Positions 41,294 to 45,003 of a DNA stretch of 64,000 bases are shown here, in pieces (the stretch's first letter is position 1; each line of letters starts with the position of its first letter). This DNA is from Phycisphaerae bacterium RAS1 (GTDB taxonomy: Bacteria > Planctomycetota > Phycisphaerae > UBA1845 > Fen-1342): assembly GCA_007859745.1 (NCBI GenBank), contig SMLU01000003.1, positions 434,001-498,000 of the forward strand, written 5' to 3'. The notes under the pieces were generated by a model. The model had not been told where the DNA came from and did not search any database. It saw nothing but the letters and a program-made list of their open reading frames with translations. The translations under genes and the position numbers were made by a program.

Positions 41294-42355
41294 ATGCGGG
41301 TCGCGATCGTCGGTTTTCCATTCAGCGGCAAAACATCGCTCTTTACCGCAATATCGGGCGTTCCACGCGACCATCTGAAGCTGGCCGAAGAGAACCTCGC
41401 CGCCGTCAAGGTGCCCGAGCCGCGGCTGGATTGGCTCGAACAGGCCTACACCCCGAAGAAACGAACCGAGGCGACGATGGACTTCGTCGACCTGCCCGGA
41501 TCGGCCGAGGGAGATGAGGAAAAGGCCGGACTGACCAAGCACCTGCCGACGCTGCGGCTGGCCGACGTTCTGCTCTTCTGCCTGCGGGCGTTCGACTCGG
41601 CTTCCGTGCCGCCGCACATGGGGAGCGTCGACCCGCAGCGCGACGCTTCGCTGCTGCGCGACGAGATGCTGCTGGCCGACATGGTCACGCTCACCGGCCG
41701 CAAGGAGCGGCTCGAAAAGTCCGCCAGCCGGCCCTCGAAGGAGCAGGACGCGCAGAAGAAGGAACTCGCACTGGTCGAGCGCTGCCTGACGGCGGCCGAG
41801 AACGGCAAGCCGGTGCGCGGCGTCGTTCAACCCGGCGACGAGGAGAAAATGCTCCGCAGCTTCGGGTTGCTGACGCTCAAGCCGGTGGTCGTGGCGCTGA
41901 ATGTCGGCGAAAGCGCCATCGCCAAGCCGCCGCCGCTGGACGCCGGCGCCGCGTCGGCGGTCATCGCGGTCAGCGCCGCGCTCGAGGCCGAGCTGATCTT
42001 GATGGAGCCTGCGGACCGGCCGGCGTTCATGGCGGACTACGGCATCTCAACGCTGGCGCGCGACCGGCTGATCCGGGCGTGCTTTGAGGCGCTCGGGATG
42101 ATCCACTTCCTGACGGCCGGACCCGAAGAGGTGCGTGCCTGGCCGATCCCGCGCGGCTTCACGGCGGTCGAAGCGGCGGGACGGATTCACACCGATCTGG
42201 CCAAGGGCTTCATCAAGGCGGAGACGATCGCATACGACGACCTGCGCGCCGCGGGTTCGATGCGCGACGCCAAGGCGGCCAACAAAGTGCGGCAGGAGCC
42301 GAAGGGGTACGTCGTGCAGGATGGGGACGTGATTCTCTTCAAGCACAGCGCGTAG
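41294..42355 (+). CDS. YchF/Obg-like GTP/ATP-binding protein
   Basis: A 353-aa protein of the OLA1/YchF kind: N-terminal G domain, helical insert and a C-terminal TGS domain. The G1 loop reads GFPFSGKTSLF (7-17), whereas classical YchF has GLPNVGKST, so it is divergent. G3 is DLPGSAEG. G4 reads VVALNVGES, fitting the NxxE variant of YchF rather than NKxD. The end (GFTAVEAAGRIHTDLAKGFI, AETIAYDDL, GYVVQDGDVILFKHSA) is a clear TGS domain. YchF proteins bind ATP rather than GTP and associate with ribosomes or stress responses. No second ychF is visible in the window. Confidence 0.85.
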   Translation: MRVAIVGFPFSGKTSLFTAISGVPRDHLKLAEENLAAVKVPEPRLDWLEQAYTPKKRTEATMDFVDLPGSAEGDEEKAGLTKHLPTLRLADVLLFCLRAFDSASVPPHMGSVDPQRDASLLRDEMLLADMVTLTGRKERLEKSASRPSKEQDAQKKELALVERCLTAAENGKPVRGVVQPGDEEKMLRSFGLLTLKPVVVALNVGESAIAKPPPLDAGAASAVIAVSAALEAELILMEPADRPAFMADYGISTLARDRLIRACFEALGMIHFLTAGPEEVRAWPIPRGFTAVEAAGRIHTDLAKGFIKAETIAYDDLRAAGSMRDAKAANKVRQEPKGYVVQDGDVILFKHSA

Positions 42356-42383
42356 CCGGAAGCGGGCGGGGCCCGCAAGCCAT

Positions 42384-42461
42384 GGTCCGCACAGCGGACG
42401 CCACATGTAGGGTCCGCTGTGCGGACCAATCCGGTAGTGCGTAGCGGTCGCTGTGCGGACC
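42384..42461. repeat. REP cluster 5' of the RAYT gene (family R)
   Basis: Three copies: an inverted degenerate one, GGTCCGCACAGCGGACG (42384-42400); GTAGGGTCCGCTGTGCGGAC-C (42408-42428); and GTAGCGGTCGCTGTGCGGAC-C (42441-42461). Each is a 7-base stem with a 3-base loop headed by GTAG. Confidence 0.93.
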
Positions 42462-42487
42462 GCCCACCTCACGCTACCATCCATCAC

Positions 42488-43063
42488 ATGCCCGTCTATC
42501 GCCGCTGGTTCCAGCCTGGCGGGACGTTCTTCTTTACGCTGGTTACCGAAGGGCGAGCGCCGATCCTGTGCAGCGACTCAGCCCGCGCGTTTCTCCGAAC
42601 GGCAACCCTCGAAACACGCGCGCGCTGGCCATTCGAGATACTGGCGTGGGTGCTGCTTCCCGAACATCTGCACACCATCTGGACGCTTCCGCCCGGCGAC
42701 GGCGATTTCTCCGTTCGTTGGGCCTTCCTCAAGAAGCAGTTCTCCAAGGCATGGTTGGCGGCGGGCGGGCACGAGCAGCGCCGTTCAACGTCGCGCATCC
42801 AGAATCGCCGCCGCGGCGTGTGGCAGCGGCGGTTCTGGGAGCATCTGATTCGGGATGAGCGAGAGTCGCAATGTCTGGCGGATTACATCCACCACAACCC
42901 GATCAAGCACGGGCATGTCCAGTGCGCCCACGCGTGGCCGTGGTCTACGTTTCACCGCCTGGTCAGGGAAGGCGCGTACACGCCTGACTGGTGCTGCAGT
43001 TGCACGACGCCGCGACGTCCGATGATCGACGACGCACTCCTGCAACCGCTCGTCGGCGAGTAG
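42488..43063 (+). CDS. REP-associated tyrosine transposase (RAYT, Y1_Tnp)
   Basis: A 191-aa protein. I chose ATG 42488 (MPVYRRWFQPGGTFFFTLV), the usual RAYT opening; the longer frame reads through the REPs. The HUH-type metal site is His60-Leu-His62 in LPEHLHTIW, and the catalytic Tyr is Tyr133 in LADYIHHNPIKHG. Other family marks are WAFLKKQFSKAW and VWQRRFWEHLIRDE. RAYTs are single-copy relatives of IS200/IS605 transposases that cut and join REP hairpins in single-stranded DNA. Here REPs flank the gene on both sides in opposite orientations, so the set has the layout of a 'REPtron'. Confidence 0.93.
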   Translation: MPVYRRWFQPGGTFFFTLVTEGRAPILCSDSARAFLRTATLETRARWPFEILAWVLLPEHLHTIWTLPPGDGDFSVRWAFLKKQFSKAWLAAGGHEQRRSTSRIQNRRRGVWQRRFWEHLIRDERESQCLADYIHHNPIKHGHVQCAHAWPWSTFHRLVREGAYTPDWCCSCTTPRRPMIDDALLQPLVGE

Positions 43064-43070
43064 AGCCAGT

Positions 43071-43167
43071 GTAGGGTCCGCTGTGCGGACCAATCCAGCA
43101 GCCATTAGGTCGCAGCAATGGTCCGCACAGCGGACCCTACATCCATGGTCCGCACAGCGGACCCTAC
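43071..43167. repeat. REP cluster 3' of the RAYT gene (family R)
   Basis: One direct copy, GTAGGGTCCGCTGTGCGGAC-C (43071-43091), and two inverted copies at 43120-43140 and 43147-43167 (GGTCCGCACAGCGGACCCTA-C). The last copy ends 30 bases before the start codon of the M16-like gene, so it may also affect that gene. Confidence 0.93.
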
Positions 43168-43197
43168 TTGTCAACTTGTCGGGTACGATTGCACAGA

Positions 43198-45003
43198 ATG
43201 TCGGCTGTGATACTTCTTCTGCAAATTGCCGCGGCGGCCACGTCCACGTCCATCCGATACGAGCGCCTGGAAAACGGGTTGCGCGTCTGTATTTTCGAAG
43301 AGCATTCGCAGCCGCTGGTGAGCGCGCAGCTCTGGATCGCCGCCGGCTCGGCGCTCGATCCGCCGGACCGAGTGGGGCTTTGCCACATTGCGCGTGCACT
43401 GCTCGAACCCGAACCGGGCGCGCCTCCCGACGCGTTGAATGCCGAAAGCCGCACGCTCCGCGACGCCTGTTTTTTTGCGGCCGTCGCGCGCACCGCGCCG
43501 GCCGCGTCGGCGCCCGCCGACGAGATCCCGCTCGATGGGCTGCTCGCCCGTCACGCGCGGCGACTCGCGCAGCCGAGTGTTAGTGAATCCGCGGTCGCCG
43601 CGGCGATCGCGCGCGCCGACACGTCGGCCGCGGCGAACATTGCGGCCGTGGACGGCATTGACGCGGCGCGGATCGACGCCTGGCAGGCGCTGCTGGAACG
43701 GGCGTTCGCCGCGGCGGGCGCGGCCCATCATCCCTACAGCCGCCCGCCGGGAGCGATGGGTCCGTGGACGCGAAACGCCGATCCACGCGAGGTCGAAGAA
43801 TTCCTGCGGCGCTGGTTCGTTCCGGCCAACGCCACCCTGGTCGTGATCGGGGACGTGTCGGCTGTGAGCGTGCTGGATCAAATCCGCGACCGGTTCGGCG
43901 CATTGCCGCGGGCTGACCCGCCGCGGCGGCCGGAAATCCCGTTCTTCCGGGACCCGCCGCTGGTCGCCGTGAATGACGGCGTCGGCGGCGCGGCGATGGC
44001 GTGGTTCACGCCGCCGGCGGGCGATTTTCAGAACGCGGCGTTCGACGTGTTGGTGCGGCGGGCGTTGAATCCGGTCGATGGCGTGAATCGCCAGCGACCG
44101 ATTGACGGTTCGCCGGGCGGCGCGCGGTTCCTGCGGCTCGGTTGGCGCGAAATGGGGCTGTGCGTACTGACGCTGCGGCCGAGCGAAAGCCCGGCGGAGG
44201 CGCGTGCGCGACTCGATCAATTCCTCACGAGACTCGACGCGGCGCTGTCGAGCGCCGAAGGGTCTGAGATTTCGCTGAACCGCGCCCGAGCGCTCGCGTT
44301 TCGCGCCGCGCTTGAGCGGCGCATGGGCTTCGCGGCCCGCGCGCGGCTGCTGGGGGAGGCACAGGTCGTCGCCGGAGATTTCCTGGCGGATGAGTACGAG
44401 CGCGGCGCCGTGGCCCGGGTCGATTCCGCCGCGCTGAACGACGCGCTGGCGGAGCTGAAGCGCGCCGCCGCCGCGGGCGTCGAAGAAAGTCAGAGCATCC
44501 GCGGCGCGGCGGAACTGCCGGGCAGCGGCGCGCCCGTGTCCGCCGAATCATTGCAGTTGGAGCGGCGGCCATGCGTGCGGCGCTCGGGCGGGCGGGTCGA
44601 GTGCAGCTTCACGCCGATCCCCGGCGAGCTGCTGGCCGCGGTGCGCGTGCGATGCCCGCGATGGACCGACTCCGCCACGCTGCGAAATGGCGTAGAGCGC
44701 GGCGCGGCGGGATGGGATGCGGCGCGGCTGGCCGACTACCTGAGCTACCACGGCCTGACGCTGCGGGTCGCCGACGCGGCAGACGGACCGGGCATCTTGA
44801 TTGACGGCGCGCCGCGCGAGCTCGCGCAAATGATCGAGCTGGCGGGCCAGTTGGCGAAAGAGCTGGCCCCGGCGGACGCGCCACTCCTGCTTCTGGTCAT
44901 CGCCGATGCCGAGGCGGTAGCGGTGTTCAAGCTTGTTTTCGGCGATGATTCGGGCGCCGGAGGGTTCTTTCTCCCTTGTCAGGCCGGCGACGCTTCGCGG
45001 TAG
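43198..45003 (+). CDS. Degenerate M16 peptidase-family protein
   Basis: A 601-aa protein starting at ATG 43198. The leader (MSAVILLLQIAAAATSTS) is a signal or anchor. The opening IRYERLENGLRVCIFEEHSQ and AQLWIAAGSALDPPDRVGLC fits M16 peptidases, and FLRRWFVPANATLVVIGDV is the family's mid-domain motif. The zinc site HxxEH is replaced by HIARA (residues ~64-68, GLCHIARALLEP), so metal binding and catalysis are not expected. M16 genes often occur as pairs with one inactive member, but no partner is adjacent. The REPs of the RAYT lie directly upstream. Confidence 0.75.
   Translation: MSAVILLLQIAAAATSTSIRYERLENGLRVCIFEEHSQPLVSAQLWIAAGSALDPPDRVGLCHIARALLEPEPGAPPDALNAESRTLRDACFFAAVARTAPAASAPADEIPLDGLLARHARRLAQPSVSESAVAAAIARADTSAAANIAAVDGIDAARIDAWQALLERAFAAAGAAHHPYSRPPGAMGPWTRNADPREVEEFLRRWFVPANATLVVIGDVSAVSVLDQIRDRFGALPRADPPRRPEIPFFRDPPLVAVNDGVGGAAMAWFTPPAGDFQNAAFDVLVRRALNPVDGVNRQRPIDGSPGGARFLRLGWREMGLCVLTLRPSESPAEARARLDQFLTRLDAALSSAEGSEISLNRARALAFRAALERRMGFAARARLLGEAQVVAGDFLADEYERGAVARVDSAALNDALAELKRAAAAGVEESQSIRGAAELPGSGAPVSAESLQLERRPCVRRSGGRVECSFTPIPGELLAAVRVRCPRWTDSATLRNGVERGAAGWDAARLADYLSYHGLTLRVADAADGPGILIDGAPRELAQMIELAGQLAKELAPADAPLLLLVIADAEAVAVFKLVFGDDSGAGGFFLPCQAGDASR

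Follow-up and report, generated by a model that had tools for sequence, protein, structure and literature searches.

This locus raises two questions: whether the gene at 42488 to 43063 and the hairpins on either side of it form a REPtron, that is, a single-copy REP-associated tyrosine transposase (RAYT) gene set between units of its own target REP family, and how such a transposase would read its own units. The DNA analyzed, hereafter the window, is a stretch of 64,000 nucleotides from Phycisphaerae bacterium RAS1 (contig SMLU01000003.1, 434,001 to 498,000). The gene and its hairpins are as follows:

42384 to 42404, minus strand: degenerate REP unit GTGG-CGTCCGC-TGT-GCGGACC, with a GTGG head and the outermost stem pair lost
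42407 to 42427, plus strand: perfect REP unit GTAG-GGTCCGC-TGT-GCGGACC
42441 to 42461, plus strand: degenerate REP unit GTAG-CGGTCGC-TGT-GCGGACC, with a GTAG head, stem changes, and a weak hairpin
42488 to 43063, plus strand: RAYT gene, 191 amino acids, assigned from profile, sequence, and predicted-fold matches
43071 to 43091, plus strand: perfect REP unit, beginning 8 bases past the last base of the RAYT gene
43120 to 43140, minus strand: perfect REP unit, inverted, which forms a REPIN-like inverted pair with 43071 to 43091
43147 to 43167, minus strand: perfect REP unit

The neighboring genes, like the RAYT gene on the plus strand, resemble a YchF-type GTPase (41294 to 42355; putative) and an M16 peptidase (43198 to 45003; putative).

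The translation of the gene contains HLH at residues 60 to 62, Tyr133, and WQRRFWEH at residues 112 to 119, and it scored 178 bits against the curated NCBIfam model NF047646 (REP_Tyr_transpos; cutoff, 80), which bears out the preliminary description of a Y1-type RAYT with these catalytic residues. The score against Pfam Y1_Tnp was 17.7, under that model's own cutoff of 23. The sequence matched the solved Escherichia coli RAYT, 4er8, with 141 bits, and the same structure was the top PDB match of the AlphaFold2 model (pLDDT, 88.7; E value, 2e-18), followed by the transposases of ISDra2 and IS608. The protein combines a HuH motif with one catalytic tyrosine in a Y1 fold (HLH60-62 and Y133; 4er8). 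The motif that follows the tyrosine in RAYTs, NP(L/V)(R/K)xG (PMC2817692), is represented by NPIKHG at residues 137 to 142, which was counted as the RAYT motif with I where L or V is expected. In E. coli, the residues that contact GTAG are W94, Q95, E100, H101, and R104 (PMC6006769), and the alignment places W112, Q113, E118, H119, and R122 of the window RAYT as their kept equivalents. The DNA-binding residues, on which the preliminary description had made the pairing of gene and hairpin depend, therefore match. The nearest named relatives of the protein belong to planctomycetes.

The account of six hairpins of one family, three per side and mostly headed by GTAG, proved accurate: five carry the GTAG head, four are perfect, two are degenerate, and some are inverted. 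The perfect unit, taken as single-stranded DNA, folds far better than its shuffles (z = −5.7), while the fold of the unit at 42441 is on a par with its shuffles (z = −0.9), and one long hairpin can be folded from the inverted pair at 43071 and 43120. A scan of the window allowing up to three mismatches gave 10 matches (0.7 expected), all at the six flanking units, so the earlier remark that the window holds no further copy is correct.

Outside the window, the family is abundant. The exact 17-base hairpin occurs 110 times in the 5.5-Mb genome (reversed control, 0), and the 21-mer with up to three mismatches occurs in 136 units (reversed control, 2); the genome-wide search proposed in the preliminary description thus returned many other copies. 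The surroundings of 118 units were analyzed in 41 stretches, namely, 40 stretches and the window, with genes called by a crude in-house caller. Outside called genes lie 113 of the 118 units, though the stretches are 83% coding. The GTAG head is kept in 107 units, the TGT loop in 108, and a perfect stem in 104, and conservation drops immediately beyond the unit, save for a preference for A directly after it. Neighboring inverted pairs point GTAG outward in 27 cases and inward in 5, and among 48 clusters, 17 are bordered by convergent genes, 25 by genes of the same direction, and 3 by divergent genes. Such placement and pairing are usual habits of REPs (PMC3733652).

Beyond this genome, an exact search of 120 related genomes found the hairpin in 40. 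With this spread and the dispersed copies in the genome itself, the suggestion that the family is recent or specific fails. RAYTs of other genomes that are 57 to 68% identical to the window RAYT have GGTCCGC flanking stems, sometimes with a different loop, and RAYTs of Methylovulum and Methylobacter, which belong to a different phylum, have a stem (GGTACGC) that differs by a single base pair. On a tree of 152 RAYTs, 131 of which had assigned stems, the stem changes 50 times, compared with 98 ± 2 after shuffling. All 12 RAYTs with GGTCCGC as the commonest flanking stem fall in one clade of 20 (SH-aLRT, 99), which also includes GGTACGC and GGCAGGC stems; this comparison of sequences supports the proposal that the transposase and this hairpin family belong together. 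RAYT-REP coevolution at the level of the tree has already been published (PMC2817692, PMC8266576). Three related genomes (G102, G033, and G083) contain the exact hairpin 217, 62, and 37 times, respectively, but gave no RAYT match with an E value of ≤1e-10; either the gene was lost, the present copies not needing it, or it is missing from the assembly.

Since the GTAG-contact and catalytic residues are kept, about 136 units are spread through the genome, and stem and clade are co-inherited, we conclude that the locus is very probably a REPtron, as had been proposed from its layout. The REPtron might be a relic, in which the hairpins spread formerly and the RAYT has since stopped cutting them or taken on a different function. 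The two degenerate units beside the gene, and the relatives with many copies and no detectable RAYT, would fit such a history, but the reading frame is intact with every catalytic and GTAG-contact residue in place, most of the units analyzed still have a perfect stem, and stem and RAYT still agree throughout the clade, which makes this reading unlikely. Less likely again is that the hairpins are merely transcription terminators or mRNA-stability elements. They are intergenic, with 17 of 48 clusters between convergent genes, but termination does not explain a near-invariant 21-base unit that includes an unpaired GTAG head and a TGT loop, nor the association with one RAYT clade across genera. 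Most improbable of all is an ordinary IS200/IS605 insertion sequence with hairpin ends by chance; it would share the catalytic fold, as the ISDra2 and IS608 matches indicate, but the RAYT model is far above its cutoff with Y1_Tnp below its own, more than 100 copies of the flanking hairpin are located away from the gene, and the genome has no second copy of the gene above 54% identity, hence no near-identical copies.

That figure, which is the identity to the closest relative in the same genome, agrees with the description of the gene as single copy; the term does not extend to the family, since the RAYT model matched 25 stretches of the genome, 16 of them above the cutoff. Most of the RAYTs examined in this genome have a flanking hairpin family that differs from that of the window. 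The stems are GGTCCGC at the window RAYT, GGTGGGT at L011, GCTGGGC at L012, and GGCAGGT at L014, and further flanking hairpins adjoin L015, L021, L022, L023, L025, L027, and L028. The REPs of three paralogues have longer loops and were recognized by reading the sequence, beyond the automatic hairpin scan. The scan near L016 to L020, L024, and L026 gave no convincing hairpin family, and the search for fusions in the long-frame matches L022, L027, and L028 showed only long GC-rich frames.

Several of these loci have features of their own. At L012, GTAGGCTGGGCT...AGCCCAGC units are densely arrayed to either side of the RAYT (1150 to 1380 and 2010 to 2400), and L014 has a REP-like family headed by GTAGGGCAGGTCGC (1210 to 1405 and 1990 to 2320), with palindrome arms tens of bases apart, far longer than the others. 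The RAYT-family matches L016, L017, and L018 (G000:C1:2614672, 2616250, and 2617828) are spaced exactly 1,578 bases apart and share 468 bases without a difference, and two further matches, L019 and L020, have one and the same sequence, which is 96% identical to that of the three. This is unusual for RAYTs and could reflect a tandem array or an assembly artifact.

How related RAYTs tell such stems apart was explored by comparing about 240 RAYTs, a first set of 131 and a held-out set of 108, with the stem pairs numbered from the base next to GTAG. Stem assignment was automatic, taking the GTAG hairpin that occurs most often close to the gene, and is wrong for some RAYTs. The structure-guided alignment excludes rows holding stops (e.g., L037, which has a stop codon). 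In the first set, residues 102 and 114 covaried with pair 3, residues 108 and 106 with pair 4, residue 106 with pair 5, and residues 79 and 107 with pair 7. At pair 3, S102 and R114 went with T. At pair 4, E108 was found with G, and R108 was found with C or A. When E108 was present, H or K at 106 went with G at pair 5 and R106 with C; N or D at 106 together with R108 went with CC in 12 of 12 cases. At pair 7, R or K at 79 excluded C, and R107 went with C. In the window RAYT, the proposed stem-reading residues are A79, S102, N106, R107, R108, and R114. These covarying residues are located on the helix at 74 to 91 and just ahead of the GTAG-contact strand in the predicted structure, and we infer that they contact the stem directly.

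Because tests of single residues on independent pairs were underpowered in the first set, the held-out RAYTs were added. They come from other planctomycetes, Gammaproteobacteria, the Desulfobulbus phylum, and cyanobacteria, with those at least 90% identical to the first set excluded. At pair 4, R108 went with C or A in 8 of 8 and E108 with G in 85 of 91, the six exceptions carrying A. At pair 5, H or K at 106 with E108 went with G in all 45, and R106 was ambiguous (C, 18; G, 13; T, 2). S102 with R114 had T at pair 3 in 74 of 75, and R or K at 79 had no C at pair 7 in 51 of 52. When each 65% identity cluster was represented by a single RAYT (53 clusters), the five rules were all still significant (Fisher P values of 2e-5 to 3e-8); these P values carry no global correction for the several residues and pairs considered. 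The rules recovered all four letters with an accuracy of 0.52, against 0.43 for copying from the nearest known relative, a gain mostly made at pair 7. Within the genome of the window, they gave 15 of 16 letters for the four RAYTs of the clade, three of which had stems in the first set while L014 had none assigned; the miss is R106 of L012, which has G at pair 5. A later-found RAYT on a Kovacikia plasmid agrees with the rules at all four pairs, and the same hairpin scan at two other plasmid RAYTs found no hairpin.

These covariations suggest that the RAYTs of this large clade read their perfect-palindrome stems by a residue-to-base-pair code, with pair 3 read by 102 and 114, pairs 4 and 5 by 108 and 106, and pair 7 by 79 and 107, so that several RAYTs in one genome would each keep their own REP family and the target REP would be largely predictable from the RAYT sequence. 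We consider this code probable, though with clearly less confidence than the REPtron itself. The recognition of perfect-palindrome REPs by RAYTs was stated as an open question in 2021 (PMC8266576), and our search of literature outside subscription journals found no residue-level RAYT code.

For the code, though not for the REPtron, shared ancestry is a serious competitor, to which we give roughly one chance in three: positions 79, 102, 106 to 108, and 114 may be clade markers in a co-inherited RAYT and REP and not readers. The stem does follow the RAYT tree, copying from the nearest relative predicts pairs 3 to 5 almost equally well, and independent pairs on supported branches are few; those that exist almost never go in the wrong direction, with a best median P value of 0.03 that is uncorrected for several tests. 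Ancestry accounts less well for the result with held-out RAYTs less than 60% identical to any training RAYT, where the rules gave all four letters in 18 of 37 and the nearest relative in 4 of 37. Also against it, a scan of all columns, restricted to close relatives with different letters at a stem pair, puts the proposed reader columns first or near first: S102 and R114 are at the top for pair 3, N106 leads for both pair 4 and pair 5, with R108 second or third for pair 4, and A79 leads for pair 7. A ranking of the held-out set by mutual information (MI) is less clean: R115 and F85 outrank R108 and N106 at pairs 4 and 5, in part owing to near-invariant columns. The position of the proposed reader columns on the helix at 74 to 91 and just ahead of the GTAG-contact strand also speaks against mere markers, as does the E. 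coli crystal structure, where the specific stem contacts are T11 and G32 and the mismatches are A12A13-G26C27 (PMC8266576). When the GTAGGCCGGATAAGGCG... unit of the E. coli rayT locus is numbered from GTAG, the mismatches land as published, T11 is pair 7, and G32 is opposite pair 3, so both stem-specific contacts fall on pairs named by the code. The alignment pairs E. coli R78 with 79 and P96 with 114, and the letters of the E. coli stem, T at pair 7 and C at pair 3, are those that the rules predict. The E. coli RAYT has no residues aligned to 91 to 106, and the code at those positions is therefore without crystal support.

The E. coli REPtron (TnpAREP/RayT, PDB 4er8, REP y/z) is otherwise a close counterpart, with a protein 43% identical, of the same fold and with the same GTAG-contact residues, and with a RAYT gene flanked by inverted REP units in both cases. 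It differs in its REP stems, which are long with an obligatory bulge (PMC8266576), whereas the window unit has a perfect 7-bp stem and a 3-base loop, and in missing the stretch that holds the proposed readers 102 and 106. The group 3 RAYTs of Stenotrophomonas maltophilia and Marinomonas (PMC8266576) share the short perfect palindrome headed by GTAG, but the best solved-structure match of the window RAYT is the E. coli protein, of group 2. GTAG-tagged REPs are known from Planctomycetes, and Rhodopirellula baltica has many transposase genes (PMC3733652); shared with the window's genome are the GTAG-tagged REPs and the wealth of tyrosine transposase genes, flanked by repeats, within a single planctomycete. 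The literature text that was searched did not contain the 17-base hairpin of the window.

The substrate bound by the window RAYT is most likely the 21-base unit in single-stranded form. The GTAG head would be read, as in E. coli, by the conserved block of WQRRFWEH and R122, and the stem of 7 perfect pairs by residues 79, 102, 106 to 108, and 114. Tyr133 and HLH60-62 would then cut and rejoin the DNA beside the unit, and copies, often as inverted pairs, would spread to intergenic places. Binding, cleavage, and dispersal of the units by this protein are proposed from sequence comparison.

As a REPtron, the locus is ordinary, an arrangement of a known kind. Its importance lies in the clade of the window RAYT, which is large and in which the stems vary in a readable way. 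We infer that RAYTs of this clade may read perfect-palindrome stems with residues 102/114, 106/108, and 79/107, and what merits testing is the residue-stem covariation, which points to specific residues and base pairs. If true, the code would account for the separate REP families of the four related RAYTs that share one genome.
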